DNA of 64,000 nucleotides from Sphingomicrobium marinum. Lineage in GTDB: Bacteria > Pseudomonadota > Alphaproteobacteria > Sphingomonadales > Sphingomonadaceae. This document shows positions 10,903-46,655 of this stretch, piece by piece (the first letter of the stretch is position 1; every line of letters begins with the position of its first letter). The notes below the pieces were generated by a model. The model worked only from the letters and a program-made list of their open reading frames with translations. It was not told the origin of the DNA and did not search any database. A program made the position numbers and the translations under genes. The stretch spans positions 985,501 through 1,049,500 of the forward strand of contig NZ_JANPVQ010000001.1 in NCBI RefSeq assembly GCF_026157105.1, written 5' to 3'.

Positions 10903-12885
10903 TTGGCCGATATTTTTCTCTCCTATGCGCGCGAGGACCAGGCGCTGGCAGAGCGGCTGGCGGGGGCGCTCGAAGCTGCGGGGAAGAGTGTCTGGTGGGA
11001 CCGGCACATCAAGGGCGGCGCGGAATTCTCCAAGGATATCGAAGAGCAGCTCGAAGCCGCCGAATATGTCGTCGTATTGTGGTCGCAACATTCGGTGCAG
11101 TCGCGCTGGGTGCGCGACGAAGCCAGTGAGGCCGCCGACAGCCACCGCCTGATATCGGTCACTGGCGACGGCACGCCGCCGCCGCTCGGTTTTCGCCAGT
11201 TCCACAGCGTCGATCTTACAGATTGGAGCAAAACGGGAGCGGCATTGCCGGCCGCGCTCCTCGCGGCGGTCGGCGCCAGGGCTGGCGATCGCGAGCAGGC
11301 GCCCGCGCCGCTCGACGCACCGCCCAGGAAAAAGTCGCTCCTGCTGGCCGCCATCGGCGCGGCGCTGTTGCTGGTTGGCGTGCTCGCCATATTTCGGCCG
11401 GGACCTGTCGGGGACTGGTTTGCGGCAGGGGACGAGCGCGAACAGGCGACACTGGCGATCCTCCCTTTTTCCGTCAGCGGCGATCCTGAGCTCGACTATC
11501 TTGGCAAGGGCTTGGCCATCACCCTGTCTGACGGGATGAGCCGGTTGCAGGGCCTCACTCTCACATCGACGACGTCGACGCAGGCGGTGGTCGACCAGAA
11601 CCTGCCGCTCAACGAGATTGGCGCGGCGCTGGGGGTGACCCACTTCGTCGAGGGGGACATCCGCGTCACCAGCGACCGCCTGCAAGCGACGCTGCGGCTG
11701 ATCGATGCTTCGAACGAACAGCAGGTGTGGAGCGAACGTTTCGACGGGACGAAAAATGCTTTGTCCGACCTGGAGCGCCGTATCGGAGACCGTCTGGCCG
11801 CAGCGATCAAGGCGCGCCTGGGCTTGTCCGGCGGCGAATTCAAGGGGCGCGCCGACGTCGATCCGCGGGCCTACGATGCCTATCTCAAGGGGATGGAGCA
11901 GCTGTCGGTGCGCTTCGATAATGCAGCGCGCAGCGAAAGCCTTCGCCAGTTCCGGCTAGCGCGGCAGATCGCACCGGACTTCGCCGAAGCCTGGGCGGGC
12001 GAGGCCTATTTGCTGTCATTGAGTTCATCGCGGCACTTCCCGCTGTCGTTCGAGGAGATCGAGAGACAGCAACGGATCGCAAATGATCGCGCGCTCGAAC
12101 TGGCGCCCGACAATGTCATGGCCATCATCGCGCGCGGCAATGCCGTGCACAACTTTCATGGCGACATTGAAGGAAGCTACGAATTTTCGAGGAGAGCGCT
12201 CGAGCTGGATCCAGACAGCGGACCGGCGCATTACTCGCTGGCGTCGACGCACGTCATGGCCGGCAAGCCGCAGGAGGGCTTGGCCCATTACGACCGGGCC
12301 ATTGCCGCCGATCCGTTCAACCGCATATTGAAGATCTACCGCGCGCTGGCGTGGTTCCACATGGGCGATTATCAATCGATAAGACGGGATCTGATGGAAT
12401 GCGAGGCGCCATGCCCTGGCGCCGCATTCCAATTGTTCGACGCGCTCCTGGCATTCGGTGAACCACTCGACTTCGAAAACGATTTTCCCGAGATCCTGTC
12501 GAGGCTGGGTCCGGAAGTTCCTCCTGAGGCCCGCTCCGAATTGCGCGCCGTAGCGCGCCAGTTCATCTTCGGGGAGAGCGCCACCATGGAGCCTCCCGAA
12601 CCGGGAGCATTTGGTTTTGATTTCGCTGTAATCCTGGCCAATGTCGGGCTCGTCGACGAAGCCTTTGCAGTCGCCAATCACAACCTCGATTACCAGCAGG
12701 CCGACGAAATCCTGCAATTCGCCAACGAAACCCGCTTGGTCGTCCCTGACGAAGTGCGCGCCGATCCGCGCTATCATGCCTTGTTTGCCATTCCGCGGTT
12801 CAAGGCGGTGGCGGATTATCGGCGCAAGCGCGGATTGACCGGCGGTCTTCCCGTTTTTCCCGTCAAACCGTACGAACGTAGATAA
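10903..12885 (+). CDS. TIR domain - membrane helix - TolB_N/FlgO-like domain - TPR protein (paralogue 1)
   Basis: 660 residues from a TTG at 10903; no in-frame ATG lies closer and the domain starts at residue 2. Residues 1-110 are a TIR_2-type domain: I-F-L-S-Y-A-R-E-D, V-W-W-D-R, S-R-W-V-R-D-E-A and P-P-L-G-F-R-Q. A single membrane helix follows a K-rich turn (about 145-164). Residues 182-300 match the TolB N-terminal/FlgO-like module (L-A-I-L-P-F then F-V-E-G-D-I-R, V-W-S-E-R-F-D), which in rhizobial adenylate cyclases sits between the cyclase domain and TPRs. The rest is helical with TPR-like repeats. The TIR would face the cytosol. A glutamate beside W-W-D, where NAD-cleaving TIRs have it, is replaced by Arg. 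The gene overlaps paralogue 2 by one base. Function unknown. Confidence 0.85.
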   Translation: MADIFLSYAREDQALAERLAGALEAAGKSVWWDRHIKGGAEFSKDIEEQLEAAEYVVVLWSQHSVQSRWVRDEASEAADSHRLISVTGDGTPPPLGFRQFHSVDLTDWSKTGAALPAALLAAVGARAGDREQAPAPLDAPPRKKSLLLAAIGAALLLVGVLAIFRPGPVGDWFAAGDEREQATLAILPFSVSGDPELDYLGKGLAITLSDGMSRLQGLTLTSTTSTQAVVDQNLPLNEIGAALGVTHFVEGDIRVTSDRLQATLRLIDASNEQQVWSERFDGTKNALSDLERRIGDRLAAAIKARLGLSGGEFKGRADVDPRAYDAYLKGMEQLSVRFDNAARSESLRQFRLARQIAPDFAEAWAGEAYLLSLSSSRHFPLSFEEIERQQRIANDRALELAPDNVMAIIARGNAVHNFHGDIEGSYEFSRRALELDPDSGPAHYSLASTHVMAGKPQEGLAHYDRAIAADPFNRILKIYRALAWFHMGDYQSIRRDLMECEAPCPGAAFQLFDALLAFGEPLDFENDFPEILSRLGPEVPPEARSELRAVARQFIFGESATMEPPEPGAFGFDFAVILANVGLVDEAFAVANHNLDYQQADEILQFANETRLVVPDEVRADPRYHALFAIPRFKAVADYRRKRGLTGGLPVFPVKPYERR

Positions 12886-14864
12886 TGGCTGACGTCTTCA
12901 TCTCCTATTCCAGCGAGGAACGCGCGCAGGCGGAAAAGCTTGCCGCCGCGCTGGAAAAGCGCGGCTATTCGGTGTGGTGGGATCGCAACCTTGAGGGCGG
13001 GGCGGACTTTTCTGACGATATCGAGCGCGAGATGCATGCGGCGGGCGCGATCGTCGTCGCCTGGTCCGAGCGCGCCGCCAAGAGCCACTGGGTGCGCGAT
13101 GAGGCCAGCTATGGACGCGACGCTGGCAAGCTGGTGCCGATCACGCTCGACGGATCGCAGCCGCCGATCGGCTTTCGGCAAGTGCAGACCATCGATTTCA
13201 GCGGCTGGTCCGGCACCGATGACGAGCGCGTGGCGCGGCTCGCCAGCGCGGTCGACCGCTGCTGCGGCAGCGACGCCGTCGCATCAGATACAACCGCGCG
13301 CGCGGGAGCTATGTCGCGCCCGAAGACGGGCTTGATCCTCGCTGCGATCAGCGCGGCCTTCATGCTGCTGGTGGCCGGGTGGTGGCTTACGCGCGATGGT
13401 GGCGAGGCGGCCGTTGCCGAGAGCGGCGTCGAGCAGACCGGCATTGCAGTGCTTCCCTTCCGTTCGCTTTCCGGCGATGAGGACCATCGTTACTTTGCCG
13501 AAGGGATCACCGAAGAAATACGCAACCGGCTGGGCGCGCTCGATGAACTCCGCGTGATCGGCCGCCTGTCGAGCCTCGAGGCTGCCAATCAGGAAGTGGC
13601 GCTGAATGAAATCGCCGAACAGCTTGAAGTCAGCCACATCGTCGAGGGAACGGTGCGTCGTAGCGGCGACCAATGGCGCATCACGGCGCAGCTGGTCGAT
13701 CCCCTTTCCGACACCCAGCTGTGGAGCGGGACCTACGACGCTGCCAACGAGGACGACCTTTTCGCAGTACAGGAAGAGATTGCCGAGCGCATTGCGGAGA
13801 CGCTCGATGTGCTTCTCGATGATGAGAAGATGCGGATGATGGCCAATGCCGGCATCAACAATCCCGAGGCCTTTGCCCTGATGGCACGGGGCGATGAAAT
13901 ATTCATGCGCGCGCATGAAAATGACAATTACCCGATGTTGGAGGACGCCAACCGCTGGTTCGATGCGGCCTTCGAAGCCGAGCCTAAGCTCTGGATTGCA
14001 AAGGTCATGTCAGCGGACCGCTATGCGCATGACCTGTTCGATCATGGCGGCGGCTTTGCCGACCTTGCTCCGGCGCAGCTGGAGGCCACCCAGAAGGCCT
14101 ATGCCGATCGCCTTGCCCGCGCGAGCAAGGCTGCACCGCCCGATCTACGTCCATCGATCCGCCATATGCAGATGCCTTTCACGGACGACTGGAGCGGCGG
14201 CGGTGATTTGACCCGACGAGTCTATTCCGGGACGTCTCCCTGCACCGTTACAGGCTGGACCGAATTCCTTGGGCTGCGGATGGGCCTGTACGATGAAATG
14301 GCAGACTATCTGAGGCGCATGCGCAATTGCGATCCGACAGGGTCGCGCGGCGCACTGGCATGGCTGCTGATCCAGCGCGGCGAGGCGGACGAGGCCATCG
14401 CCATCCTCGATTCAATGATCGAACAGCATGGCTGGGGCCAGCGTGCCGGGTTGCTCAAATTGCTGGCAATGTTGTCCAAAGACGATCTCGATGGCGCAGA
14501 GGCGGTGGCACGGCAAATGGATACGGGCACATTTCATTACGAAATCGGCCAATTGGCCCTGCTTGCGTATCGCGGCGACGAAGCAGCAATCCGCGCGAGA
14601 ATGGAAAATAGCTTGGAAGAAGGATTGATGCCAGGCCTCCATGCCGCTGCGCTGATCGGCGATCGCGAGCTGGCGAACCGATATGCTGCGATGATCGATG
14701 CGCGCGCCGGCGGACCTGCCATGCTCGAATTCGGCAACGGATACTGCATGTGCGGCGACATGTTCGATCTGAGCGCGACACCGCGATTTGCCGAACGATT
14801 GCGTGAGGCGGGCGTATCTGGTTCACTTCCCCGGCCGATAAATTGGCCAATGAAAAGCTGGTAG
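12885..14864 (+). CDS. TIR domain - membrane helix - TolB_N/FlgO-like domain - TPR protein (paralogue 2)
   Basis: 659 residues; its ATG shares the A of the preceding TAA (TAATG), so translation is probably coupled to paralogue 1. The TIR domain is at 1-110 (V-F-I-S-Y-S-S-E-E, W-W-D-R-N-L, S-H-W-V-R-D-E-A, P-P-I-G-F-R-Q). The membrane helix is near 148-168. The TolB_N/FlgO-like domain at about 186-310 reads I-A-V-L-P-F, then H-I-V-E-G-T-V-R-R and D-L-F-A-V-Q-E-E-I-A, close to the consensus of this module. The C-terminal half is helical and less regular than in paralogue 1; a cluster Y-C-M-C-G-D lies near the end. Together with paralogue 1 it may form a heteromeric membrane sensor (inference). 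Confidence 0.85.
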   Translation: MADVFISYSSEERAQAEKLAAALEKRGYSVWWDRNLEGGADFSDDIEREMHAAGAIVVAWSERAAKSHWVRDEASYGRDAGKLVPITLDGSQPPIGFRQVQTIDFSGWSGTDDERVARLASAVDRCCGSDAVASDTTARAGAMSRPKTGLILAAISAAFMLLVAGWWLTRDGGEAAVAESGVEQTGIAVLPFRSLSGDEDHRYFAEGITEEIRNRLGALDELRVIGRLSSLEAANQEVALNEIAEQLEVSHIVEGTVRRSGDQWRITAQLVDPLSDTQLWSGTYDAANEDDLFAVQEEIAERIAETLDVLLDDEKMRMMANAGINNPEAFALMARGDEIFMRAHENDNYPMLEDANRWFDAAFEAEPKLWIAKVMSADRYAHDLFDHGGGFADLAPAQLEATQKAYADRLARASKAAPPDLRPSIRHMQMPFTDDWSGGGDLTRRVYSGTSPCTVTGWTEFLGLRMGLYDEMADYLRRMRNCDPTGSRGALAWLLIQRGEADEAIAILDSMIEQHGWGQRAGLLKLLAMLSKDDLDGAEAVARQMDTGTFHYEIGQLALLAYRGDEAAIRARMENSLEEGLMPGLHAAALIGDRELANRYAAMIDARAGGPAMLEFGNGYCMCGDMFDLSATPRFAERLREAGVSGSLPRPINWPMKSW

Positions 14865-14920
14865 GGAACGCCTTGCGTCCCTTGCCGTTCTGTACCGCAA
14901 GCGTCTAGCGTCGGGGGCCA

Positions 14921-16759
14921 ATGGATCATCATTTCATCGTAGTAGTCGCCCTGGTGGGCCTGGCGGGGATCGGCGCGCAGTGGATCGCGTGGCGGACGGG
15001 GTGGCCTGCGATCGCGCTGATGCTGGTCGCCGGCCTTCTGCTCGGCCCGGTGACCGGGCTGGTCGATCCGCATCATGACTTTGGCGATGTTCTCGAGCCG
15101 ATGATCTCCATCGCGGTGGCGATCATCCTGTTCGAAGGTGGGCTGACCCTCAAATTTTCGGAACTCAAGAAAACCGGCGGTGCTGTGCCGCGATTGGTGC
15201 TCGTCGGCGCACCTGTCGCATGGGTGCTCGGCGCCTTTGCGCTGCATCACGTTGCCGGCCTCGTCTGGCCGGTGGCCATCCTGTTCGCCGGCATCCTGAT
15301 CGTAACGGGGCCGACGGTCATCATGCCGCTCCTCAGGCAGACCAACCTCAAGCAGCGCCCCCGCAACATCCTCAAGTGGGAAGGGATCGTCAACGATCCG
15401 CTGGGCGCGCTATTTGCAGTCGTGACGTACGAATGGCTGGTGCAGGTCGAACGCGGTTCGACCGTGGTCGACAACGTCATCACGCTCATTCTGTCGTCGA
15501 TCGTGGCGGGAGCCATGGGCTACGGCGCGGCGCGCGCTGTGCGCTTCCTGTTCCCGCGCGGGTTGGTACCCGAATTCCTCAAGGCGCCGGTGCTGCTGGT
15601 CTTCGTCATCGGCACCTATGTGCTCTCCAACGTCATCCAGGAAGAAACCGGCCTGCTGGCGGTGACGGTGATGGGTATCGCGCTGGCCAACATGCATATC
15701 GCCAGCCAGCGTACCTACCTGCCTTTCAAGGAAAATATCACGATCCTGCTGGTCTCCGGCGTCTTCGTGATCCTGTCGGCCAGTCTCGATCTTGAAGCCT
15801 TGCGCCAGTTCGAGTTGCGCTGGGCGGCATTCCTGCTGGTGCTCCTGTTCCTCGTGCGTCCGATTTCAATTCTCGTCGCGCTGGCCTTCACCAAGGTCCC
15901 GTGGAAGGAGCGCGTATTCGTCGCCTGGATCGCGCCGCGCGGTATCGTCGCCGTCGCCATCTCGGGCCTGTTTGCCTTGCGGCTCGATGAAATCGGCTAT
16001 GGCGATGGCCAGCTTCTCGTGACGCTGAGTTTTGCCGTCGTGGCGGCTACCATTGTCGCGCATGGCTTCACGATCGGCCCGATGGCGCGCGCACTCAAGC
16101 TCAACGGACCCGAAAGCAACGGCGTCCTGATCGTCGGCGGCCAGAGTTTCTCCCTGTCGCTCGCAAAATCGCTGCAGCTGTTGAAAGTCCCCGTGACGAT
16201 CGCCGACAAGAGCTGGCAGGCGCTGGCCGGCGCGCGAGCTGCCGGCATCCCCACCTTTCACGGCGAAATCCTGTCCGAAGCGACCGAGGAAGAGCTCGAT
16301 TTCGGGCAATTCCAGGTGATGGTCGCGACCACCAACAACGAGGCCTACAACGCGCTCGTCTGCTCTGAATTCGCGCCCGAAATAGGGTCCGACAGCGTCT
16401 ACCAGCTGGGCGATGCGTCGGGCGATGATCCGCACGCGCTCCCCGAAGGACTGCGTGGCCGCGCGCTGTTCGAGGAAGGCCACGGCGTCGAGGATGTCGC
16501 CGATTACGAAGCCAAGGGATGGCAATTGCGCGCGATCGAACTGACGCTCAGCAATACGTTCGATGTGGCGATGGGCAACCTGCCGGAAAGCGCGGACCTA
16601 CTTTACATCTTGCGCGAAAACGGGCGGCTGCGCTTCTTCACCCACGCCTCCGCACCGACCGGCAACCCTGGCGACACGATCGTCGTCTATGTGCCGCCGG
16701 GCACCCCCGAAATCCGCTCCGAAGTCCTGCCTGACGACGTCAAAGAGGAAACATCATGA
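14921..16759 (+). CDS. Cation:proton antiporter (CPA1/NhaP type) with C-terminal RCK domain
   Basis: 612 residues. About twelve hydrophobic helices fill residues 5-390. T-G-P near 129-131 and E-G-I-V-N-D-P near 154-160 correspond to the unwound-helix and ion-binding N-D motifs of CPA1 antiporters. Residues from about 395 form a Rossmann-like RCK_N segment (V-L-I-V-G-G-Q-S-F-S-L) that probably binds a nucleotide, followed by a small TrkA-C-like end. The substrate is Na+ or K+ against H+; the ion cannot be told from sequence. The stop overlaps the start of the OmpA lipoprotein gene (ATGA), so the two are probably co-expressed. It sits 56 bp after TIR paralogue 2 with no convincing terminator between. 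Confidence 0.9.
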   Translation: MDHHFIVVVALVGLAGIGAQWIAWRTGWPAIALMLVAGLLLGPVTGLVDPHHDFGDVLEPMISIAVAIILFEGGLTLKFSELKKTGGAVPRLVLVGAPVAWVLGAFALHHVAGLVWPVAILFAGILIVTGPTVIMPLLRQTNLKQRPRNILKWEGIVNDPLGALFAVVTYEWLVQVERGSTVVDNVITLILSSIVAGAMGYGAARAVRFLFPRGLVPEFLKAPVLLVFVIGTYVLSNVIQEETGLLAVTVMGIALANMHIASQRTYLPFKENITILLVSGVFVILSASLDLEALRQFELRWAAFLLVLLFLVRPISILVALAFTKVPWKERVFVAWIAPRGIVAVAISGLFALRLDEIGYGDGQLLVTLSFAVVAATIVAHGFTIGPMARALKLNGPESNGVLIVGGQSFSLSLAKSLQLLKVPVTIADKSWQALAGARAAGIPTFHGEILSEATEEELDFGQFQVMVATTNNEAYNALVCSEFAPEIGSDSVYQLGDASGDDPHALPEGLRGRALFEEGHGVEDVADYEAKGWQLRAIELTLSNTFDVAMGNLPESADLLYILRENGRLRFFTHASAPTGNPGDTIVVYVPPGTPEIRSEVLPDDVKEETS

Positions 16760-17310
16760 GATTTGTCGCCCTTATCGGTCTGCTCACACTGACGAGCGCC
16801 TGTGCCGATCGGACCCCCGATGACGATGCGCCGGGCAATGACGTCGCCAACCAGGTCGAACCGCCGCGCCAGTCGATCATTCGCGACGAGGTTCTCAACG
16901 AGGTCAGCCCTTCCGAAGAGGAGGTGGAAGCGCCGCTCACCTTGACGGTCGGCTTCCCTGAAGGCGGCGCCGAACTGAGCCCCGAGGCGATGTTGAGCCT
17001 CGAAGAGTTCGTGACCGACGAGCTGGTCGCGGGTGACGAGGTCTTCCATTTGTGGGGCCATAGCGACAGCCGCGGTGGAGAAGCACCCAACCGCCGTGCC
17101 GGGCAGCAGCGCGCCGAGGCCGTGGCTGAATGGCTGGTCGAACGCGGGATCGATGCCGACCGCTTGGTAATCATCTCGCTCGGCGCGGATAATCCTATCG
17201 CCCCCAACGCAAATCTTGACGGCAGCGACAATGAAAAAGGTCAGGCCGCCAATCGCCGGGTCGAAATCCTTGTGGGCGAACTGCCGGAAGAAGACGACAA
17301 AATCGCTTAA
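16756..17310 (+). CDS. OmpA-family lipoprotein
   Basis: 184 residues. An N-terminal hydrophobic stretch ends in the lipobox L-T-S-A-C (Cys16), followed by a D/E-rich flexible linker. Residues 70-175 resemble the OmpA C-terminal peptidoglycan-binding fold: a strand V-G-F-P-E-G-G-A-E-L, then H-S-D-S-R-G, R-A-E-A-V-A-E-W-L and a final N-R-R-V-E-I. The aspartate and arginine that grip diaminopimelate appear present. It is expected in the periplasm, lipid-anchored and bound to the wall. Its start overlaps the antiporter stop by 4 bp, an unusual partnership that suggests coupling of ion transport with envelope tethering (inference). Confidence 0.85.
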   Translation: MRFVALIGLLTLTSACADRTPDDDAPGNDVANQVEPPRQSIIRDEVLNEVSPSEEEVEAPLTLTVGFPEGGAELSPEAMLSLEEFVTDELVAGDEVFHLWGHSDSRGGEAPNRRAGQQRAEAVAEWLVERGIDADRLVIISLGADNPIAPNANLDGSDNEKGQAANRRVEILVGELPEEDDKIA

Positions 17311-17320
17311 GTCGGCGAGG

Positions 17321-17350
17321 CGGATGGAGCGAAGCGACTGGAGCGGGTGA
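17321..17350. repeat. 30-bp direct repeat, copy 1 (carries 12 bp of the tRNA-Gly 3' end)
   Basis: A perfect 30-base match to 17404-17433, 83 bp away. The last 12 bases equal the CCA end, discriminator and acceptor stem of the neighbouring tRNA-Gly; the first 18 lie outside the tRNA. This looks like a duplicated tRNA 3' end, as left by site-specific integration or by a local duplication. No integrase gene is nearby. Confidence 0.85.
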
Positions 17351-17403
17351 GCCGAGCGCAGCGAGACGATCGACGGGAGGGAGATCAACGGCACCGAAAT
17401 CCG

Positions 17404-17433
17404 CGGATGGAGCGAAGCGACTGGAGCGGGTGA
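17404..17433. repeat. 30-bp direct repeat, copy 2 (overlaps the 3' end of tRNA-Gly)
   Basis: Second copy of the 30-base repeat. Its right 12 bases are the 3' terminus of tRNA-Gly(CCC) and its left 18 bases are downstream flank. The flanks of the two copies diverge at once on both sides. Confidence 0.85.
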
Positions 17434-17495
17434 AGGGAATCGAACCCTCGTCTTAAGCTTGGGAAGCTCCTGCTCTACCATTGAGCTACACCCGC
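17422..17495 (-). tRNA. tRNA-Gly (anticodon CCC)
   Basis: The minus strand gives a 74-base cloverleaf with encoded CCA: acceptor GCGGGTG/CACCCGC, D-arm GCTC/GAGC, 7-base anticodon loop TTCCCAA (anticodon CCC), and T-arm with GGTTCGATTCC. The anticodon stem has one apparent G-A mismatch at its base (27-43), which can be tolerated but is worth noting. The 3' end is included in a 30-bp direct repeat. The flanking 263-base stretch 17434-17696 holds the rest of the tRNA, a short inverted repeat and no other gene. Confidence 0.95.
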
Positions 17496-17586
17496 CTGTG
17501 TCCGGAGGGCGCATCTAGGCGCGGCGACGAAATCCGTCAATGAGCATGCACGTCGCGCTGCTCTGTAAACTTGACAGATGTTAGGT

Positions 17587-17611
17587 TTCCCCCTCCACTG
17601 GGAAGGGGGAA
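17587..17611. repeat. Short inverted repeat upstream of TIR paralogue 3
   Basis: TTCCCCCT and AGGGGGAA form a perfect 8-bp stem around a 9-base loop. There is no T-run after it on the plus strand. It lies about 85 bp before the TIR gene and could be an operator, a REP-like element or nothing of note. Confidence 0.35.
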
Positions 17612-17696
17612 TTGCGATGTCGCATATGCCGCACGGGATCGAACAAGGTTTTGCCTTCGGTCCAGCAGGAGCGCTCTGCGCCTTGGTGGACGGCGA

Positions 17697-19916
17697 ATGA
17701 GCAAGCTTTTCGTCTCCTATTCCAGCAAGGATCGCGATCGTATTGCGCAGCTGGTTGCGGCGCTCGAGGCGCGCGGTCATGACGTGTGGTGGGACAGTAA
17801 GATCGGCGGCGCCACGCGCTTTTCAACCGAGATCGAGGCGGCGCTTGACGAAGCCGACGCGACCATCGTCGCATGGTCGCCGGCGGCAGTGACCTCCGAA
17901 TGGGTGCTCGACGAGGCGGCACATGCGCGCGATCACGACAAGCTCGTTCCCATCCGGCTTGACGACGTCTTCCCGCCGCTCGGTTTTCGCCAGCGCCAGG
18001 CGATCGATTTCAGCGCATGGGACGGTACAGCCGACAGCCCGCAGATGGATGAGCTCGAAACGGCGCTCGACCGTGTTGGTTCGGGCAAGATCGGAGACTA
18101 TGCGGCTGAAAGCCGGACCATCGTGCACGAGCATAAGGGCCTGTTGTCGCATCGGCAGCTGATTGCTGCACTGCTGTCGCTGCTGAGCGTGTCGGCGCTG
18201 GTTTTTTATGTATGGCAGGACCACCGGGGCGAGGTCGAAGCGCGCTCGTTGAAAAGCGACCCGTATGAAAATGTCGTAGCCATCCTGCCATTTTCAGGCG
18301 ACCGCGAAGGCGATGACGAGCGGGTCGTGGCGGGCATGTACGAAGGCATTGTCAGCAAATTGTCCAAGGTCGATGGCCTGACCATCCTCTCACCCCTTGC
18401 GCTCACCCGATATGTCGAAGAGGTGCCACCCCTCGATGAAATCGCCGCGGCGACTGGTGCGCGCTACGTGATGCTCGGAAATTTTGAGCGGACAGGGGAG
18501 ACGTTGCGGCTGTCGCTCCAGCTCGCCGACGCGACGTTGGGCACCAATGTCTGGTCGAACGACCAGGTCGCGACCGCGACATTGGAAAGCATGCACGACG
18601 CGCAGTTCGAGATTGCGGAAACGGTCGCGCGCCAGCTCAAGGCGGCGCTCGATGACGATGAACGCTCGCGCGTTCAGCGCGCGCCAACGCTGAACCGCCA
18701 GGCCTACGATGATTATCTGATCGGAATAGGCATGCTTGAAAGCGATCCCGATCCGATGCGCTATCTCAATCGAAGAAGCGAGGCGCTAGAGCGGGCCGTC
18801 GAGGCCGATCCAGATTTCGTCGAAGCGATTGCTGCGCTTGCCATGGTGCGGATGATGAAAAGTCGGACCGGGCCCGCGGCAACCCCCCGCGAGCAGGAAG
18901 CGACGCGGATTGCGATTGAACGTGCGCTACAGCAAGCGCAAATGCTTGATCCCGAGGCAGCTGAAACCCTGATGGCAGAAGGGTATTACCATCTGTGGGT
19001 GACCCGCAATTTCTCCGCCGCCGAAAGCTTGTTGGGCCGTGCGCTCCGACTGGCACCAAGCGTGCAGGTCGCGGCGTTCGGTTACGGTTGGGCGGCGCGT
19101 CGCAACGGACGGTTCGAAGAGTCGATCGCCGCCCTCGAGCGCGCGGCCAAGCTGGATCCCTTCGCCTACCAACCCATGCGCGACCTGAGCTGGAGCCTGG
19201 CCGCCATGGGCAGGAATGAAGAGGCATGGACCTACTTCGAAAAAGCGCGATCGCTGGCGCCTGCACCGAGTTTCCAAGCCACCCATGAAGCGCGGCTTCA
19301 CCTGATGGAAGGCGATTCGTCGGCGGCGCTGGCGAGTTTCGATGGCGTGGATGCGGGACCCGATACGCTTGCACACATCGTTCTGACGGAAATTGCGATA
19401 GACGTCGGCGACCGCGAGGCGATCGACGCCGCATTGGAAAATTGGGCTAGCGCGTTCGATAGTAACGGACCCTTCGGCCTGTTCTTTCAGGTCCGGCGCG
19501 CCGAGAGTGCCGAACGGCTGGGCGACGCCGCCATGTTGGCCGACGCTCGTGCGCGGCTTGCTGCATCGGTGGCTTCACCGGAGCGCGGGCAACCTGCCGT
19601 CTGGGGCATACCGCTTTCGCCGGTCACAATCCCGTCATTTCTGGGGAATGAGGAGGAAGTTGATAGGTTGATCGCGGACTACGAAAAGCGCGACGACATC
19701 GACCAATGGCTTGGCCTGCTCGTCGATCGCCGGCAGATTGCCGAGGCTTTCATGCGTTTGGGAGCGACCGAGCGGGCGCTTGACCAGCTTGAGGAGATTA
19801 CAACGGGGCTTGGTGCCAAGGCATTTCATTCCTTCAGCTACGAGCCACTATTTTTGCCGCTGCGTTCTTCTCCGCGGTGGCGGGCTATGCGGGCTGCTGC
19901 GAATAACGCGGCCTAG
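17697..19916 (+). CDS. TIR domain - membrane helix - TolB_N/FlgO-like domain - TPR protein (paralogue 3)
   Basis: 739 residues from ATG 17697, where the TIR consensus begins; the frame is open upstream but carries no domain. The TIR is at 1-110 (L-F-V-S-Y-S-S-K-D, V-W-W-D-S, S-E-W-V-L-D-E-A, P-P-L-G-F-R-Q). The membrane helix is at about 153-173. The TolB_N/FlgO-like part at 193-320 reads V-V-A-I-L-P-F and is more diverged than in the other copies. At least four TPR-like repeats follow, including a clear pair near 480-560. It is the longest of the four paralogues. It stands alone after tRNA-Gly rather than in the tandem, and its stop shares CTAG with the convergent acetyltransferase gene. Confidence 0.85.
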   Translation: MSKLFVSYSSKDRDRIAQLVAALEARGHDVWWDSKIGGATRFSTEIEAALDEADATIVAWSPAAVTSEWVLDEAAHARDHDKLVPIRLDDVFPPLGFRQRQAIDFSAWDGTADSPQMDELETALDRVGSGKIGDYAAESRTIVHEHKGLLSHRQLIAALLSLLSVSALVFYVWQDHRGEVEARSLKSDPYENVVAILPFSGDREGDDERVVAGMYEGIVSKLSKVDGLTILSPLALTRYVEEVPPLDEIAAATGARYVMLGNFERTGETLRLSLQLADATLGTNVWSNDQVATATLESMHDAQFEIAETVARQLKAALDDDERSRVQRAPTLNRQAYDDYLIGIGMLESDPDPMRYLNRRSEALERAVEADPDFVEAIAALAMVRMMKSRTGPAATPREQEATRIAIERALQQAQMLDPEAAETLMAEGYYHLWVTRNFSAAESLLGRALRLAPSVQVAAFGYGWAARRNGRFEESIAALERAAKLDPFAYQPMRDLSWSLAAMGRNEEAWTYFEKARSLAPAPSFQATHEARLHLMEGDSSAALASFDGVDAGPDTLAHIVLTEIAIDVGDREAIDAALENWASAFDSNGPFGLFFQVRRAESAERLGDAAMLADARARLAASVASPERGQPAVWGIPLSPVTIPSFLGNEEEVDRLIADYEKRDDIDQWLGLLVDRRQIAEAFMRLGATERALDQLEEITTGLGAKAFHSFSYEPLFLPLRSSPRWRAMRAAANNAA

Positions 19917-20197
19917 CTGCGCACCACATCGCCCCAGTCGTGCCGTTCGGCCTGCGCCTTGAAGAAGGGGCATACGGGGATGATCTTCCAGCCATTGGCG
20001 CGCGCATCTTCGACGGCGCGTTTGGATAGCGCTTCGCCCAGGCCCTGGCCGCGTGCGGGGGGCGGGACATAGGTATGGTCGATCATGATCAACTGATCGT
20101 TGGTGCGGCTAAAGGACATTTCGGCGAGCTCATCGCCGCTATCGGGCATGGTCGTCCATTTGCCGCGGCCATGTTCTTCGGTGAAGTCGATATCCAT
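19913..20197 (-). CDS. Small GNAT-fold N-acetyltransferase (YjdJ/Acetyltransf_CG type)
   Basis: 94 residues from ATG 20197. The core reads M-I-D-H-T-Y-V-P-P, then A-R-G-Q-G-L-G (acetyl-CoA pyrophosphate loop), A-V-E-D-A-R and I-I-P-V-C-P-F. This is the compact single-domain GNAT family related to yeast/E. coli YjdJ. The frame stays open for another 700 bases upstream, but that part overlaps the transporter gene in another frame and is not coding. The substrate is unknown. It follows the transporter by 56 bp on the same strand and converges on TIR paralogue 3. Confidence 0.8.
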   Translation of the reverse strand: MDIDFTEEHGRGKWTTMPDSGDELAEMSFSRTNDQLIMIDHTYVPPPARGQGLGEALSKRAVEDARANGWKIIPVCPFFKAQAERHDWGDVVRS

Positions 20198-20253
20198 ATC
20201 AGCCCAATGCGTATCGCCGCTTTCGGTTGCACGAAAACGGCTGGCAGCCCGGT

Positions 20254-20925
20254 CTATAACGTCGCGGGCGCAGGTTCCGGCGTTGTGCCATCGAGCCGAT
20301 GCGCGAGCGCAACCATGAGGTAGATAAGCGGCGGGAAGGCAAGTGCCGACAGCACGACCTTGGCGAGCATCTGCCCGAGCATCAGATCGAGGATCGGGAA
20401 GACACCGTAAAAGGCGATCGAGATGAAGATCAGCGTGTCGAGCGCCTGGCTGATCACGCCGGCCGCCGCCGAGCGGAACCAGAGAAGACCGCTTCCGCCC
20501 GGACCCTTGAGCCGGTCGAAAATCCAGACGTTGAGCAAGGTCGAGATGCCGTAGGCCGCGATACCGGCCAGCCAGATGCGGGGCGTGGAGCCTAGCATCA
20601 GGTTGAAGGCGCTGAGGCGCTCCGCGTCCATTTCCTCCGCCGCCGGAAGATTGAGGATCATCAGCGTCAGCAGCGAGGAGATGATCAGCGGCACGAAGCC
20701 GAACAGCACCAAGCGCTGGCCCGCTTTCTTGCCGTAAATCTCGGTAATGGCGCTCGACGTCACCACCAGCAGCAGGAAGGCGAAGATGCCGGCTTCGACC
20801 GCAAGCGGGCCAAGCGCAACCTGCTTGTTGGCGAAAACCCCTGCAATGCAGACCATCCCGCCGTAGAAAACGGCGAAGGCCATCAGGGAGAGCGGGACGG
20901 TGCGGGTCGTGGGCGTTTCGTTCAT
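20254..20925 (-). CDS. Queuosine precursor transporter (VUT/YhhQ family)
   Basis: 223 residues from ATG 20925. Six hydrophobic segments are visible. The family signature region S-A-I-T-E-I-Y-G-K-K-A-G follows the second helix, and I-S-Q-A-L-D-T-L-I-F-I matches the later conserved helix. Members such as E. coli YhhQ import preQ0/preQ1 for tRNA queuosine. No que genes lie in the window, so the substrate is inferred from the family alone. A longer in-frame start at 21033 would add a basic non-hydrophobic leader and overlap the opposite promoter. Confidence 0.85.
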   Translation of the reverse strand: MNETPTTRTVPLSLMAFAVFYGGMVCIAGVFANKQVALGPLAVEAGIFAFLLLVVTSSAITEIYGKKAGQRLVLFGFVPLIISSLLTLMILNLPAAEEMDAERLSAFNLMLGSTPRIWLAGIAAYGISTLLNVWIFDRLKGPGGSGLLWFRSAAAGVISQALDTLIFISIAFYGVFPILDLMLGQMLAKVVLSALAFPPLIYLMVALAHRLDGTTPEPAPATL

Positions 20926-21041
20926 GCGGCAAAGGGGTAGCGGCTTTTGCCGGAAAGCCAAGGCTAATGATTGACGGCGCGGGAGGGCGCGGCTAGCGAC
21001 GCCGCAGTTTTTACGCTTTCTTTCCAGCAGCATCGGGGCCG

Positions 21042-22028
21042 ATGAGCGACACCAGGTTCGATATTTTGGCGATGGGCGACGCGATGGTCGACGTCATCGC
21101 CCCGGCCAGCGAGGAGTTTCTTGCCGAGCACAAGCTGCCGCGCGGCTCGATGCAGCTCTTGTCGCCCGAGGCCGCGGACAAGCTTTACGATGCGATGGGT
21201 GTCGCCGAAGAGCATTCGGGCGGCTCGGCAGCCAACACGATGGCGGGCGTTGCTGCGATGGGCGGCAAGGTCGCTTTCATCGGGCAGGTTGCCGATGATC
21301 AGTTCGGCCGCATCTTCCGCCACGACCTGCACGCGCTGGGCGTGCATTTTGATACGCCGCCCATCCCCGGACCACCGCCGACCGGCCGATGCCTGATTCT
21401 GGTGACGCCCGATGGACAGCGCACGATGAACACCGCGCCGGGCGCCAGCCACGAACTGGTCGCCTCGCAGCTTGATCCCCAACTGATCCGCGACAGCGCG
21501 GTGCTCTACCTCGAAGGGTATCTGTTCGGCCCGGAAAAGCCGCGCGCCGCAATGATGGAAGCGATCGATATCGCGCACGGGGCAAATCGCAAGGTCGCCT
21601 TCACGCTGTCGGAAAGCGTGTGCATCGCCGAGCGACGCGATCCGTTTATCGACATGATCCAGGGCGGGGGCGTCGACCTCCTGTTCTGCAACGGGGAAGA
21701 GGCGCGCGTGCTGACCGGGGCGCCAAGCGCCGAAGCGGCCATGGCGCAGCTGGGTGACCATGTCCCGCTGATGGTCGTCACCGATGGCCCGAACGGGGCG
21801 ATGGCAGCGACCAGCGGTGAAACGGTGCGCATCGATGCAGCGCCGGTCGACAAGGTCGTCGATACCACCGGGGCAGGGGACCTGTTCGCGGCCGGATTCC
21901 TGTTCGCGCATTGCCGCGGCGCGGGGCTCGAAAAGTCGCTGCAAACCGGCGCGATCGCGGCGGCCGAGGTCATTTCGCATTATGGCGCGCGGCCCGAAGC
22001 CGACCTGAAGGAATTGATCAGCGTATGA
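21042..22028 (+). CDS. PfkB-family sugar/nucleoside kinase, probable adenosine kinase
   Basis: 328 residues. It has the PfkB N-terminal G-D-A-M-V-D, the di-glycine substrate region S-G-G-S-A-A-N-T, and the C-terminal D-T-T-G-A-G-D box with catalytic Asp280. Overall similarity and the context (LOG, NupC, later AMP nucleosidase) favour adenosine kinase, making AMP from adenosine. A ribokinase-like sugar specificity cannot be excluded. The stop overlaps the LOG start by ATGA, so it is the first gene of a nucleoside operon. Confidence 0.85.
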   Translation: MSDTRFDILAMGDAMVDVIAPASEEFLAEHKLPRGSMQLLSPEAADKLYDAMGVAEEHSGGSAANTMAGVAAMGGKVAFIGQVADDQFGRIFRHDLHALGVHFDTPPIPGPPPTGRCLILVTPDGQRTMNTAPGASHELVASQLDPQLIRDSAVLYLEGYLFGPEKPRAAMMEAIDIAHGANRKVAFTLSESVCIAERRDPFIDMIQGGGVDLLFCNGEEARVLTGAPSAEAAMAQLGDHVPLMVVTDGPNGAMAATSGETVRIDAAPVDKVVDTTGAGDLFAAGFLFAHCRGAGLEKSLQTGAIAAAEVISHYGARPEADLKELISV

Positions 22029-28823: not shown

Positions 28824-28824
28824 G

Positions 28825-42122: not shown

Positions 42123-42131
42123 TTTACCGTA
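42107..42131. repeat. Inverted repeat spanning the ilvE stop codon
   Basis: TACGGTAAA (42107-42115) and TTTACCGTA (42123-42131) form a perfect 9-bp stem with a 7-base loop containing the stop. No T-run follows, so it is a weak terminator. An operator for the GGDEF-EAL gene 76 bp downstream, or a stabilising 3' hairpin, are alternatives. Confidence 0.45.
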
Positions 42132-42207
42132 ACGGTTTGGTCTTTGCGATGAATCTGGTGTAAGCGCTTCGCGTGGACCGTCGGAACCGATCCGGCGGAA
42201 GAGGCGA

Positions 42208-44592
42208 GTGTGGATATTGTCGCAGCAGAACGACGCCCTTGGCGTAACGCACGGTGATGGACCCAGGCCGAGAAAGGCCGAGCGACAGATCAGCCTGAAT
42301 GACATATTCAGTCTGAGGCGGCCGCGGGATTTGATGATGCAGGCCGTGCGCGCGCAGCAGATCGATACGATCCTGCGCCTCGCACCGGTGACCATCGCAA
42401 TCCAGCTATTGTGCGGCGCAGTCCTGCTCGCGGCCTTGTCCTCCAGTGTCGATAGCCGCGAACTGCTGGCCTGGTTCGTCGTAGCCGGCGCCATCTGTGC
42501 GGTGCGTGTCGGACGCGCCTGGAGGCTTCGAAGCGATGCCGAATATGAAAGCCGTGCTCCTGCCACCTTCTTGTCGGCGACCCTGACGGTCGGTTTGCTT
42601 TCGGTTTTCTGGCTGGTCCCGCCGATCCTGTGGTTCGATGATGCCACTTCATCTTCGCAGCTGCTGATGGCCGTGGTCAGCGCGGTGCTGGTAAGCGCGG
42701 GATCGTTGACCTTTATCAGCGTGCCGCCCGCAGCGTTGGCCTACGTCACGGTGACGCTCGCCAGCACGCTCATCATCGCTTTGAAGCTTGAAAACATGCC
42801 GATGGCGGCGCTGACTATTGTCTACGGCCTTGCCGTCATCATTGCGATCATCGCTTCGGCGCGACAGTTTATCGCCAAGACGCGCGCCTCCATCGCGCTC
42901 GAAGAGCAAAGCGAAATCATCACGATATTGCGCGAGTTCGAAGCGTCCGGCTCGGGCGGGCTCTGGGAGCTCGACCATCAGATGCGCCTCGTCAAGTTGA
43001 GCGAGGATCTGGCCAGCCAGATCGGTGCGAGCGCATCGAGCCTGATCGGCATACAGGTGCGCAGCCTGCTCGACCCGCTTAACCGTGTCACCGATCTTTC
43101 GAGCGGGATGCAGGACCTGTTCCGGCACCTGCACGAAGGTACGCCGTTTCGAGACATTGCGATCCCGGGTGTCCGCACCGACCGCTGGTGGGCGGTCAGC
43201 GGGCGCCCAACCCGTGATAGTGGTGGCCGTGTTATCGGCTGGCGCGGGGTCGCATCGGACATCACCGATGTCCGCCTCACCGGTATCGATAGCGTCCGCG
43301 AGGCGCGGCGCGACCCGCTGACCGGCATCGCTAACCGGCTATTGCTGCGCGAACTGCTTGAGGAAATGATCCTCGAAAACCTCGATGACGCCGATCGCGG
43401 GGCGCTGCTGATGGTCGACCTGGATCGATTCAAACTGGTCAATGACACGATGGGGCACGCCATTGGAGATCGCTTGTTGTGCGAAGTGGCCAGGCGTTTC
43501 GAAGACGTAGTAGGCGATGAAGGGCATGTCGGCCGCTTGGGCGGCGACGAATTCGCCGTGGTCTGGCACGGCTCCAATGACGAGGAGACGTTGCGCGGTC
43601 TCGCTGGGCGTCTGATCGAGGAAGTCTCACGCAGCTTCAAGGTCGGCGGGGCAACGCTCAATATCGGCGCGACCGTCGGCATCGCGGCAGGCGGGCGTGA
43701 TGGCAAGCGCGAAAGCAATCTGATGCGTGCAGCCGATCTTGCGCTCTACCAGGCCAAGCGCAGCGGTCGCGGCAAATATGCCTTCTTTACCCAGAAGATG
43801 CTGACGGCCGCGGAAGATTCGCGCCTTCTTGAAAACGACGTGCGCGATGCGCTGACCAAGCGCACCATGCACATCGCCTATCAGCGGATAGTCGATAGCA
43901 AGACGCACGAGACGGTTTGCCGTGAAAGCTTGCTGCGATGGGACCATCCCACGCGCGGCTCGATTTCGCCGCAGAAATTCATTCCGATCATCGAGGATGT
44001 CGGCCTGATCCATCAGATTGGTGCGTGGGTATTGCAGCGCGCCTGCAAGGAAGCGATGAGCTGGCCGGACAAGGCCCGGGTGGCTGTGAACGTGTCGGCA
44101 GCCCAATTGGAAGGCGAAGGCCTTGAAGAGGTTGTGCGCGAGGCGCTCGAAAGCAGTGGGCTCGATCCCGACCGGCTCGAACTTGAAGTGACGGAATCGA
44201 TATTCATCGGTGAAGACGCCGACATGCTGGATTCGCTCGAACGGCTGCGCAAGCTGGGCGTTCGCCTGGTGCTCGACGATTTCGGCAAGGGTTATAGTTC
44301 GCTTGGCTATCTGAGCCGCGCGCATTTTTCCAAGATCAAAATCGACAAGGATTTCGTCCACGGCGCGGCGCGCGGCGAGCGGGATCGGCTGGCGATCGTG
44401 CAGGCCATCCTGGCGCTTTCCGAAGGACTTGGCATCGAAACGACCGCAGAAGGTGTCGAGACCGAACAGGAGATCGACATGCTGACGGCGATGGGCGTGA
44501 CCCAGCTACAGGGATACTATTTCGGGCGACCCGAAAGCATCGAGCCGGACAGCGTGCCCGAGCGGCGATTGGTCCGCCAAAAGGCGAGCTGA
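42208..44592 (+). CDS. Membrane GGDEF-EAL protein (c-di-GMP turnover) with PAS-like segment
   Basis: 794 residues from GTG 42208, with GGAAGAGG three bases upstream. Residues 50-225 contain about six membrane helices. A PAS-like segment follows (F-E-A-S-G-S-G-G-L-W-E-L-D). The GGDEF domain has an intact G-G-D-E-F, but the inhibitory RxxD site expected five residues earlier is replaced by G-D-E-G. The EAL domain retains E-V-T-E, D-D-F-G-K-G and K-I-D-K-D, with E-S-L-L-R-W in place of E-A-L-L-R-W. It can in principle both make and break c-di-GMP; the net direction cannot be told. Confidence 0.92.
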   Translation: MWILSQQNDALGVTHGDGPRPRKAERQISLNDIFSLRRPRDLMMQAVRAQQIDTILRLAPVTIAIQLLCGAVLLAALSSSVDSRELLAWFVVAGAICAVRVGRAWRLRSDAEYESRAPATFLSATLTVGLLSVFWLVPPILWFDDATSSSQLLMAVVSAVLVSAGSLTFISVPPAALAYVTVTLASTLIIALKLENMPMAALTIVYGLAVIIAIIASARQFIAKTRASIALEEQSEIITILREFEASGSGGLWELDHQMRLVKLSEDLASQIGASASSLIGIQVRSLLDPLNRVTDLSSGMQDLFRHLHEGTPFRDIAIPGVRTDRWWAVSGRPTRDSGGRVIGWRGVASDITDVRLTGIDSVREARRDPLTGIANRLLLRELLEEMILENLDDADRGALLMVDLDRFKLVNDTMGHAIGDRLLCEVARRFEDVVGDEGHVGRLGGDEFAVVWHGSNDEETLRGLAGRLIEEVSRSFKVGGATLNIGATVGIAAGGRDGKRESNLMRAADLALYQAKRSGRGKYAFFTQKMLTAAEDSRLLENDVRDALTKRTMHIAYQRIVDSKTHETVCRESLLRWDHPTRGSISPQKFIPIIEDVGLIHQIGAWVLQRACKEAMSWPDKARVAVNVSAAQLEGEGLEEVVREALESSGLDPDRLELEVTESIFIGEDADMLDSLERLRKLGVRLVLDDFGKGYSSLGYLSRAHFSKIKIDKDFVHGAARGERDRLAIVQAILALSEGLGIETTAEGVETEQEIDMLTAMGVTQLQGYYFGRPESIEPDSVPERRLVRQKAS

Positions 44593-44646
44593 CGACCCTC
44601 TTTTCATCGCGGCGAAGTTGGCTATAAGCGCGGCTCGATCACCTGC

Positions 44647-44721
44647 TGGGGTGTAGCCAAGTGGTAAGGCACCGGTTTTTGGTACCGGCATGCGCAGGTT
44701 CGAATCCTGCCACCCCAGCCA
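44647..44721 (+). tRNA. tRNA-Gln (anticodon TTG)
   Basis: 75 bases with encoded CCA: acceptor TGGGGTG/CACCCCA, D-arm, anticodon stem CCGGT/ACCGG with loop TTTTGGT (anticodon TTG), and T-arm GGTTCGAATCC. The 185 bases to the next gene (44722-44906) hold nothing I can support. Confidence 0.97.
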
Positions 44722-44906
44722 CTTCCCGCGACAAGGCGAAGGCAGCGATCGCTCTACCGGACATATTCGCAAAGTGGGGATGTTGGGCGCCGCGTGTCGG
44801 GAACGGCAAAGGCCAAGAGGGAAGCATATTCGCCGGCCGAAGGTGGCAGCATCGCAGCGCCCGCAATCCGACATGCACTTGTCGGCCAATCGCCGTAAGC
44901 TAGACC

Positions 44907-46655
44907 TTATGTCGTAGCGGTCATGCCAAGGCGGTCGCGCGCTTTTTCAATCATCTCCCGGTAGCGCGAATCTTCGCGCAGCGGATCCATGTCGGGATCG
45001 GCATCGCAATGCGTCACCATCGAAGGTGCGCAATTCGCGAAAACGTGGTCGAGAATATTGAGCGCGGCATCCTTGTCCTGCAGGTACATCACCTCCGCAC
45101 AAGCGAGATTATACTGCATAGTCATGTTGTCGGGATCGAGCATATGCGCGCGCTGGATCCATTCTTTGGCACGCTCGCGCTCTCCCAACACGGCCAAAGC
45201 GCACGCGCCATAGCCCAGCGCCGCGCTGTTGGAGGGGTCTTCCTTGAAAGCCTTTTCGGCGCGCTCCTGCACCATTCCTGCGGCACGTTTGAGCCCTTCA
45301 TCGTCCCCGATCGCCTGGTAACACGTCGTCAACATGCCAGCGTCGCGATAGTCGGTATCGTTCATCGACGCGGCCTTGTCGAAGAAGGGGATGGCTTCTT
45401 TCAACTGCTTGTTCCGGAAGAGCAGGAACGCTTTTACCTGGTTGGCTTCAAAATTTTCGGGGTCGCTCTCCAGCGCCTTGTCCACCTCACTCAGGGCCTC
45501 ATCGAAGTTACCGTCAGCGTTGTGGAGAATGGCCTTCACGACATGCGCTTCGGCGAGCCCCGGCTGGAGTTGCAATGCCTTTTCCGTGGCGGGCAAGGGA
45601 TCGACTTCGACGTCGAAATTTTCGCGCAGCTCGGCCTGGGCGTGCGCCATTAGCGCCCATGCTTTTGCATATTCGGGGTCGATGGTGACCGCTTGCTGGC
45701 AGATGCGCACGATCACTTCTTCACGCCGCTTGTCGCCATCATTGCCGCTGATGCGCTGCTGGCGGGCCATGAGATACAGGTTGTAGGCTTCCGAGCTCGA
45801 CGTGCCGCGGGTCTCGATCGCCTTCTTTTCCTGCGGTAGGAGCTGAACCCGCAGCGCATTGACGATGGCTTTCGAGATTTCGTCCTGGATGGCAAAAATG
45901 TCGTCGAGCTCTCGGTCGTAGCGATCCGCCCAGACATGGTCGCCATATTTGCCGTCGATCAGCTGCGCATTGATGCGCACGCGCCCGCCGGCCTTGCGCA
46001 CGCTTCCTTCAAGGACATGACTGACGCCCAGTTGCTGGGCGATCTGTTTGACGTCGATGCCTTTGCCCTTGAACGAAAAGGCCGTGTTGCGCGCGATGAC
46101 CGACAAGGCGGAGACCTTGCTAAGATCGGTGATGATATCTTCGCTGATACCATCGGAGAAATATTCCTGTTCGGCATCGCCGGACATGTTGGTGAAAGGC
46201 AGGACACATACTGCGAGACGGTCGGCACGGGCGCCGGCCGTGGTATCGCGAGCGTCGTCGCCGGCGCGGCCCGCCAGAACCGCCACGCTGCTTTCCACCT
46301 TGATCCATCCGGCAGCCGAGCGATCGCCCATCCAGCCTTTCAGGTCGGCACATTGAATCTGGTTGAAGGGCAAGGGAGGAGTGGATCCGTCTACCGACAA
46401 TTGCACCAATGTTCCGGCCTCGCGGGCGGCATCGGCTTCGGCACGAACCCACTGCGACCGCGCGGCATCGTCCGACCAGATGACGACGACGGCCTTGGCC
46501 GCACGAAGGCGCTCTTCGATGACCTCGCTATAGGAACGGTGCGCAGGTAGTTCGTCGTCGCGCCAGACCGTGTATCCGGCCTCACGCATGGCGTCGGCGA
46601 GCATTTTCGCAATTGGCTCGTTTGGACGAGCGTAGCTGATGAAAATGTCCGACAT
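44907..46655 (-). CDS. TIR domain - TolB_N/FlgO-like domain - TPR protein without membrane helix (paralogue 4)
   Basis: 582 residues from ATG 46655 with AAGGGG upstream. The TIR is at 1-110 (I-F-I-S-Y-A-R-P-N, V-W-R-D-D-E-L, S-Q-W-V-R-A-E-A). Unlike the other three it has Glu35 two residues after Asp33, near where NAD-cleaving TIRs keep their catalytic Glu. There is no hydrophobic helix in the linker 110-145, so the protein is probably soluble. Residues 147-270 fit the TolB_N/FlgO-like consensus best of the four (V-L-P-F-T-N-M-S-G-D, L-E-G-S-V-R-K-A-G, D-I-F-A-I-Q-D-E-I). At least five TPR-like repeats follow. It lies 84 bp downstream of the LOV regulator on the same strand. Confidence 0.87.
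   Translation of the reverse strand: MSDIFISYARPNEPIAKMLADAMREAGYTVWRDDELPAHRSYSEVIEERLRAAKAVVVIWSDDAARSQWVRAEADAAREAGTLVQLSVDGSTPPLPFNQIQCADLKGWMGDRSAAGWIKVESSVAVLAGRAGDDARDTTAGARADRLAVCVLPFTNMSGDAEQEYFSDGISEDIITDLSKVSALSVIARNTAFSFKGKGIDVKQIAQQLGVSHVLEGSVRKAGGRVRINAQLIDGKYGDHVWADRYDRELDDIFAIQDEISKAIVNALRVQLLPQEKKAIETRGTSSSEAYNLYLMARQQRISGNDGDKRREEVIVRICQQAVTIDPEYAKAWALMAHAQAELRENFDVEVDPLPATEKALQLQPGLAEAHVVKAILHNADGNFDEALSEVDKALESDPENFEANQVKAFLLFRNKQLKEAIPFFDKAASMNDTDYRDAGMLTTCYQAIGDDEGLKRAAGMVQERAEKAFKEDPSNSAALGYGACALAVLGERERAKEWIQRAHMLDPDNMTMQYNLACAEVMYLQDKDAALNILDHVFANCAPSMVTHCDADPDMDPLREDSRYREMIEKARDRLGMTATT

Follow-up and report, generated by a model that had tools for sequence, protein, structure and literature searches.

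Four genes of Sphingomicrobium marinum, called P1 to P4 here together with their products, encode an N-terminal TIR domain followed by a long rear half and lie inside a single stretch of 36 kb. They were found in a piece of 64,000 nucleotides (hereafter the window; G000:C1:985501–1049500) of a 2.24 Mb genome, and all four are present where the first-pass annotation had placed them, although it left the minus strand of P4 unstated. Bacterial TIR proteins have been studied mainly as phage-defence enzymes, and the way in which they sense infection is often unclear, as is stated for Thoeris.

The four genes are part of a genuine set of TIR receptors that is old and was put together repeatedly, with two types of sensor, CadC-like in P1–P3 (modelled for P1) and cyclase-type in P4. 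The parts of these proteins were already known, the new elements being their combination, its numbers and the exchange of output domains. The domain order, the predicted transmembrane helix and its orientation, the fold match between P1 and CadC, the conserved glutamate, the output exchange and the differences in copy number between sites are computed results. The reading favored here, with a probability of about 0.55, is that these proteins would work as envelope or cytosolic one-component receptors that switch on a TIR output of presumed NAD-cleaving activity.

Domain Architecture

The N-terminal TIR domain is recognized in all four proteins by the Pfam model TIR_2 (E 8e-22 to 5e-25; 78–89 bits against a curated cut-off of 28). 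The cut-off of the Pfam model ThsB_TIR is exceeded by P1 and P4 and not by P2 and P3, and the P2 TIR alone, used as a sequence query against solved structures, gave no match at E 0.001. Both sequence blocks previously noted in these domains occur as described, S-x-W-V-x-x-E-A in 4/4 and P-P-x-G-F-R-Q in 3/4, P4 having PPLPFNQ instead; however, the first block includes WxxxE, a motif widespread among bacterial TIRs (excerpts of PMC11374754), and is therefore no family marker by itself.

The rear halves of all four consist of an alpha/beta module followed by TPR-like helices. The TolB_N/FlgO-like module is real and alignable across the four proteins, though it stays below the Pfam cut-offs: among 17 module sequences, 11 matched FlgO and three TolB_N at E<0.1, with a best E of 2e-4, and the best match of the module sequence to a solved structure had an E of only 0.12. 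The TPR-like region that the first-pass annotation gave to every copy is found by TPR models above cut-off in P1, P3 and P4, and only below cut-off in P2 (Pfam). Pairwise identity among the four is 33–51% in the TIR and 26–30% in the rear.

The suggestion that the same rear half serves rhizobial adenylate cyclases and winged-helix regulators holds, the P4 rear being 44% identical over 487 amino acids (aa) to a cyclase-TPR protein of Sinorhizobium meliloti and the P1 rear 30% identical over 318 aa to a winged-helix-TPR protein of Azospirillum. The domain order places the TIR in the output position, where the cyclase or winged helix otherwise sits.

Predicted Membrane Topology and Likeness to CadC

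In each of P1, P2 and P3 a single, strongly hydrophobic segment lies between the TIR and the module; it starts at residue 146–155 and has a mean hydropathy of 2.3–2.9 over 19 residues, while the best segment of P4 reaches only 1.02. A single transmembrane helix between output and sensor, a trait of CadC- and ToxR-like regulators, is predicted in P1–P3 and not in P4, and likewise in nine of the 12 module-bearing TIR proteins of the genome, the other three being without it. Two larger sets were compared: 77 proteins of the genus (13 from this genome and 64 from relatives, the latter taken from 73 TIR open reading frames (ORFs) in 60 fetched stretches that represent part of the listed matches, after setting aside nine short or cut ORFs) and 81 proteins from other records. 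At a hydropathy above 1.5 a transmembrane helix is predicted in 50/77 and 65/81, respectively. Of the 15-residue segments on either side of the helix, the preceding one is richer in lysine plus arginine in 48 of the 50 genus proteins (two ties, none reversed) and in 56 of the 65 others (seven ties, two reversed), a bias which fits a TIR inside and a sensor outside. The number of cysteines in the rear is even in 88/115 proteins with the helix vs. 17/43 of the rest (Fisher p 2e-5, uncorrected for relatedness, the latter group including borderline scores of 1.2–1.5), as expected for disulphide-bonded parts in an oxidizing periplasm. A C-x(2-3)-C pair is kept in 10 of the 11 proteins of the wider clade of P1, the eleventh being the product of a shortened gene described below.

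Structure models cover P1 and P4. The AlphaFold2 model of P1, built from 49 sequences, has a mean pLDDT of 86, confidence being low in the parts that adjoin the transmembrane helix on either side. In a Foldseek comparison with solved structures, ranks 3–6 (best E 4e-7) went to crystal structures of the CadC periplasmic domain, with TM-scores by target length of 0.59–0.63 over 315–322 columns for 3ly7/3ly8 (3ly8: 0.63, 315 columns); the other top matches were TPR proteins. The P4 model (pLDDT 90) matches TPR proteins.

P1–P3 thus look like CadC receptors in which a TIR has replaced the DNA-binding domain. In common with CadC/ToxR-like regulators they would have a cytosolic output, one transmembrane helix and a C-terminal periplasmic sensor of an alpha/beta part and helices; unlike these regulators, whose N-terminus is a winged helix, all four proteins carry a TIR there, so that direct binding to DNA is not expected. 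To become active, CadC, a one-component regulator of the membrane, must dimerize via its periplasmic domain, and this input can be replaced by a foreign dimerizing one (excerpts of PMC5936718). Animal Toll-like receptors share with P1–P3 the predicted plan of a single-span receptor with a cytosolic TIR, and the likeness is one of plan only: the order is reversed, the TIR being N-terminal here, and a CadC-like sensor takes the place of the leucine-rich repeats (LRR), no LRR family appearing among the Pfam matches listed for the four.

Proposed Mechanism and the TIR Active Site

According to the proposed mechanism, P1–P3 and six further proteins of the genome would hold their TIR in the cytosol, cross the inner membrane with one helix and expose a CadC-like sensor in the periplasm. 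A periplasmic change, which may be a ligand, pH, the state of the envelope or a partner protein, would alter the dimerization of the sensor as in CadC; dimerization would bring the TIR domains together, and the assembled TIRs would either cleave NAD+ or produce an ADP-ribose signal. P4 and two relatives would couple the same output to a cytosolic sensor of the cyclase type. We infer that the TIRs are enzymes and that assembly switches them on, and likewise what may trigger them and what their signal may do.

The putative catalytic glutamate of WxxxE is present in the four window proteins and in 158/158 aligned TIRs, namely 77/77 genus proteins, which were found by profile, and 81/81 from other records, for which the search pattern included that residue. 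It also occurs in the nine genus ORFs set aside. The tryptophan of the motif is kept in 145/158, and in seven of the nine ORFs set aside (Asn in the other two). The rows without it form two clades of the genus, one with L083, L089 and L097, which forms tandem arrays of up to three genes, and one with L067, L073, L078, L082, L090, L094 and L107; the glutamate is kept in both.

It is improbable that the TIR lacks enzymatic activity and serves for assembly or docking, recruiting a partner to the sensor. TIRs act as scaffolds in many systems (excerpts of PMC7075850 and PMC8494770) and 13/77 genus rows have lost the motif tryptophan, but the glutamate persists in every aligned TIR, even in those rows.

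Probable Exchange of Output Domains

The rear of P4 shares 47% and 43% identity with those of two class III cyclases, and the P1 rear 39% with that of a winged-helix protein. The class III cyclase-TolB_N-TPR proteins, both rhizobial and of the genus itself, share with P4 a rear that is 43–47% identical and, in the three cyclases of the genus examined, the absence of a transmembrane helix before the module; they differ in having a cyclase where P4 has a TIR. Twenty stretches chosen by hand, from the order-wide sample described below, as containing the rear half only carried four cyclases, six winged helices, seven other fronts and three TIRs (8/20 fronts run against Pfam, the rest judged from sequence), so the start of a model match is an unsafe sign of architecture. 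The module also stands behind a front with hydrophobic stretches that begins with an ELKRRNVxRV-like sequence (L230, L232, L233, L239, L243, and L244) and may be an output or an anchor.

A tree of rear halves was calculated with 113 rows (four of 117 were dropped as the module was not found) and checked under a mixture model with a hand-picked subset of 47 rows, which omits 66 of the 113 including P3. All trees in this study are quick searches without bootstrap and contain long branches (P3, L237, L238, and several others). In both rear-half trees the TIR label needs at least seven changes on starred branches, the P4 clade is sister to the cyclases (100 and 99, starred) and P1 nests with the winged-helix protein L238 (99 and 96, starred), itself a long branch. 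A single TIR clade on the rear halves is rejected (p 1e-8; 47-row tree). If the trees hold, the lack of TIR monophyly together with the forced label changes suggests that the TIR has been swapped with other output domains on more than one occasion.

Inventory and Origin of the Copies

The host genome encodes 14 TIR_2 proteins, 12 of which also carry the TolB_N/FlgO-like module; eight of these module-bearing genes lie outside the window, including a tandem trio about 40 kb upstream. All 12 strong module matches in the genome fall in TIR proteins, and a thirteenth, weak one (E 2.5e-4) does not. The two TIR_2 genes without module encode a divergent TIR protein with TPR matches and a TIR-FHA protein of 282 aa, whose gene adjoins that of a Ser/Thr protein kinase on the other strand (L017:9605-10453 and 10464-12905); TIR proteins of similar size and start as the TIR-FHA protein occur in G001 and G018 (L059, L055). 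Stand-alone TIR frames of 106 and 114 aa (L063:259-576 in G001 and G010:C1:2293598-2293867) are perhaps remnants of longer genes.

The view of these genes as a lineage-expanded family holds for the copy number, which is high and uneven: among 36 genomes of the genus, of varied completeness and with other TIR architectures included in the count, TIR_2 matches range from 0 to 18 per genome, with none in six, some of them incomplete. The design also occurs outside Sphingomonadales, in records titled Parvularcula, Caulobacter, Pseudoxanthomonas, Lysobacterales and others; the titles of 80 other records name Parvularculaceae, Caulobacterales, Lysobacterales, and Alteromonadaceae besides many Sphingomonadales. 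Of 296 genomes sampled evenly across the order, 131 gave a full-model match at E 1e-40; among the matches listed, those that start at the TIR belong to the window's own family and those of other families start after the TIR position. When 72 proteins from other records were added (147-row tree), genus and other rows were well mixed, with a minimum of 18 label changes as labelled, 14 of them forced by starred branches. This minimum is too high, since six rows labelled "other" possibly belong to the genus, and it falls to 14 when they are set aside.

That one ancestral gene gave rise to the four by a recent local tandem expansion, as the first-pass annotation suggested ("active local expansion"), is highly improbable. 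The four genes do lie inside 36 kb, P1 and P2 overlap by one base (the ATG of P2 and the stop codon of P1 forming TAATG), and the TIR sites of the genome are clustered, though only mildly (4/10 within 81 kb, p 0.03 by simulation). However, a single clade of the four costs 958 log units (AU, approximately unbiased test, p 2e-57) and a clade of P1 and P2 alone 362 (p 5e-6). The nearest relatives in the 77-row tree are a G019 gene for P1 (61% identity), a G018 gene for P2 (54%) and a G001 gene for P4 (98%), all in other genomes, while P3 stands alone on a long branch. P1–P4 are not recent copies of one another, being spread over different old clades and having rears that derive from distinct sensor families, and the presence of the design outside Sphingomonadales also speaks against a local expansion.

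Sites, Flanking Genes and Selection

The P1/P2 site, the P3 site and the trio site (C1:952–957 kb) can be followed across G000, G018 and G019 by matching flanking genes (Table 1). In this order of genomes they hold 2/1/0, 1/0/0 and 3/4/1 TIR copies, respectively, and in G010 a TIR frame of 114 aa directly follows the left flank of the P1/P2 site. In G019 the trio site holds the nearest relative of P1, about 35 kb away from the P1/P2 site, which is empty in that genome; this indicates that TIR genes have probably been moved or copied between sites. The tRNA genes close to P3 and P4 are possible insertion points.

Table 1. Coordinates of the four genes, their parts and the flanking features (window positions).
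Feature	Position	Strand	Remarks
P1: TIR, transmembrane helix, CadC-like sensor	10903..12885	+	660 aa, TTG start
P1 TIR domain, residues 4-114	10912..11244	+	TIR_2 E 1.9e-24
P1 WxxxE motif W69-E73, putative catalytic Glu	11107..11121	+	conserved Glu
P1 predicted transmembrane helix, residues 146-164	11338..11394	+	mean Kyte-Doolittle 2.89 over 19 residues; model helix 145-163
P1 TolB_N/FlgO-like module and helical repeats	11443..12828	+	model match to CadC periplasmic domain 3ly8
P2: TIR, transmembrane helix, sensor	12885..14864	+	659 aa
P2 predicted transmembrane helix, residues 150-168	13332..13388	+	hydropathy
P3: TIR, transmembrane helix, sensor	17697..19916	+	739 aa; no close relative found
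P3 predicted transmembrane helix, residues 155-173	18159..18215	+	hydropathy
P4: TIR, sensor without transmembrane helix	44907..46655	-	582 aa; rear half kin to class III cyclases
P1/P2 site, left flank	9413..10408	+	matched in G018, G019, G010
Small ORF between left flank and P1	10490..10855	-	121 aa; 73%/69% alike in G018/G019; no Pfam match
P1/P2 site, right flank, cation antiporter-like (judged from sequence alone)	14921..16759	+	matched in G018, G019
OmpA-domain gene, left flank of P3 site	16756..17310	+	matched in G018, G019
tRNA-Gly	17422..17495	-	at most 210 bases from P3
GNAT-type acetyltransferase right of P3	19913..20257	-	G018 64%; not found in G019 stretch
Next gene right of P3 site	20254..21033	-	matched in G018, G019
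tRNA-Gln	44647..44721	+	at most 210 bases from P4

A loss of P1–P3 in the near relative G001 was considered and rejected. Window positions 8000–22500 match only paralogues, a tRNA and one short stretch in G001, and the trio region behaves likewise; because conserved flank genes, one of them methionine aminopeptidase-like, are missing too, the assembly probably lacks the stretch. The last gene of the trio (L015:7898-9397; G000:C1:951897-953396) encodes 499 aa, whereas its relatives reach about 655, and its C-terminus differs from that of the relatives; it is probably broken or an assembly error. GGDEF-EAL genes flank two TIR sites (L015:5686-7416 and window 42208-44592), the arrangement being conserved at the trio site in G018 and G019.

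Six near pairs between G000 and G001 (P4 and five genes outside the window) gave ratios of nonsynonymous to synonymous substitution (dN/dS) of 0.00–0.13 in the TIR, module and TPR parts and faster change in the linkers (0.07–0.44), with no sign of positive selection in these pairs. Over long distances, where dS is near saturation, the ratios outside linkers were 0.10–0.53. The highest value belongs to the TPR part of P2 in comparison with G018, the neighboring antiporter-like gene having 0.23; between these P2 counterparts the TIR is 86% identical and the TPR part 39%.

Relation to Defence Systems

An alternative to the signalling reading is that the proteins form an anti-phage or anti-competitor repertoire, in which periplasmic sensors would detect an attack on the envelope and the TIRs would kill or stall the cell through loss of NAD+. 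The TIR output itself, the uneven number of TIR_2 genes in the genus, the variable occupancy of the three sites, the tandem arrays and the partial matches to ThsB and other defence TIR models speak for it, as does the contrast within P2 between a TIR that is kept and a TPR part that has diverged faster than the neighboring gene, at a dS near saturation. Several results argue in the opposite direction. Of 18 neighboring genes run against Pfam, 16 were matched, all by ordinary, housekeeping-type families (including OmpA, GNAT, GGDEF-EAL, polyA polymerase, glutamate synthase, quinolinate synthase, and the protein kinase beside the TIR-FHA gene), and neither a known defence gene or island nor a ThsA-type effector beside a TIR was seen among the 18. 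None of the matching plasmid records covers 80% of the query (0/95 for P1, 0/489 for P4); the records listed (10 of 95 and 15 of 489, respectively) match through the rear half, and where an annotation exists it names a cyclase, winged-helix or TPR protein; the one exception is a Novosphingobium place that matches residues 4–294 of P1. The NCBIfam defence models score far below their cut-offs on the four, NCBIfam and PADLOC models match only the TIR and, weakly, the TPRs, and dN/dS is low in the six near pairs, none of which is P1–P3. A defence repertoire is a possible but rather unlikely explanation. A search of the genome for STALD (ThsA-type) was empty, but its control was silent too.

Compared with Thoeris ThsB and other bacterial defence TIRs, the window proteins likewise have a TIR with the conserved WxxxE glutamate; they differ in carrying their own sensor and in having no ThsA-like neighbor among the genes examined. 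Group 6 of a TIR survey (PMC7075850) likewise joins an N-terminal TIR to C-terminal TPRs; however, the survey describes it as mainly actinobacterial, with members of more than 700 aa, and the excerpts of that survey report no transmembrane, TolB_N or CadC-like part. No description of a TIR on a CadC-like or TolB_N sensor was found in the literature searched, most subscription journals being outside its reach.

The quinolinate synthase gene nadA lies directly upstream of two same-strand TIR genes at C1:1.818 Mb (L020:7882-12468), and also in G001. A search at E 1e-20 of 11 regions around related genes did not find it in the other 10, and it was rejected as a functional clue.

Returning to one-component receptors with a TIR output, several points weigh against this interpretation. 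The predicted periplasmic location of the P1–P3 sensors draws on hydropathy, charge and cysteine parity, uncorrected for relatedness. The tryptophan lost in the 13 genus rows, where it is replaced by Phe (six) or Glu (seven), means that some of the TIRs may be inactive, and the P4 model matches CadC weakly (target-length TM-score 0.42 at best). None of the 18 neighbors examined looked like a dedicated downstream partner, and since P1–P3 have no near orthologue in hand, selection is seen for P1 and P2 only over long distances and for P3 not at all.

Implications

Tentatively, these proteins may belong to a widespread proteobacterial class of transmembrane TIR receptors, in which shared families of periplasmic and cytosolic sensors would have been wired by repeated exchange of the front part to transcription (winged helix), cyclic nucleotides (class III cyclase) and NAD-derived signals (TIR). 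If this is true, some species hold a dozen TIR receptors, and NAD cleavage would be an ordinary output of envelope signalling and not only a death switch. Here the TIR sits on a sensor family, that of CadC, whose structure has been solved and whose mode of activation has been investigated. Since winged helices, cyclases and further fronts are found on related sensors, exchanging the sensor could reveal the trigger by means of a simple read-out. Should the TIRs be active, a non-lethal, envelope-coupled NAD signal in bacteria would become directly testable.

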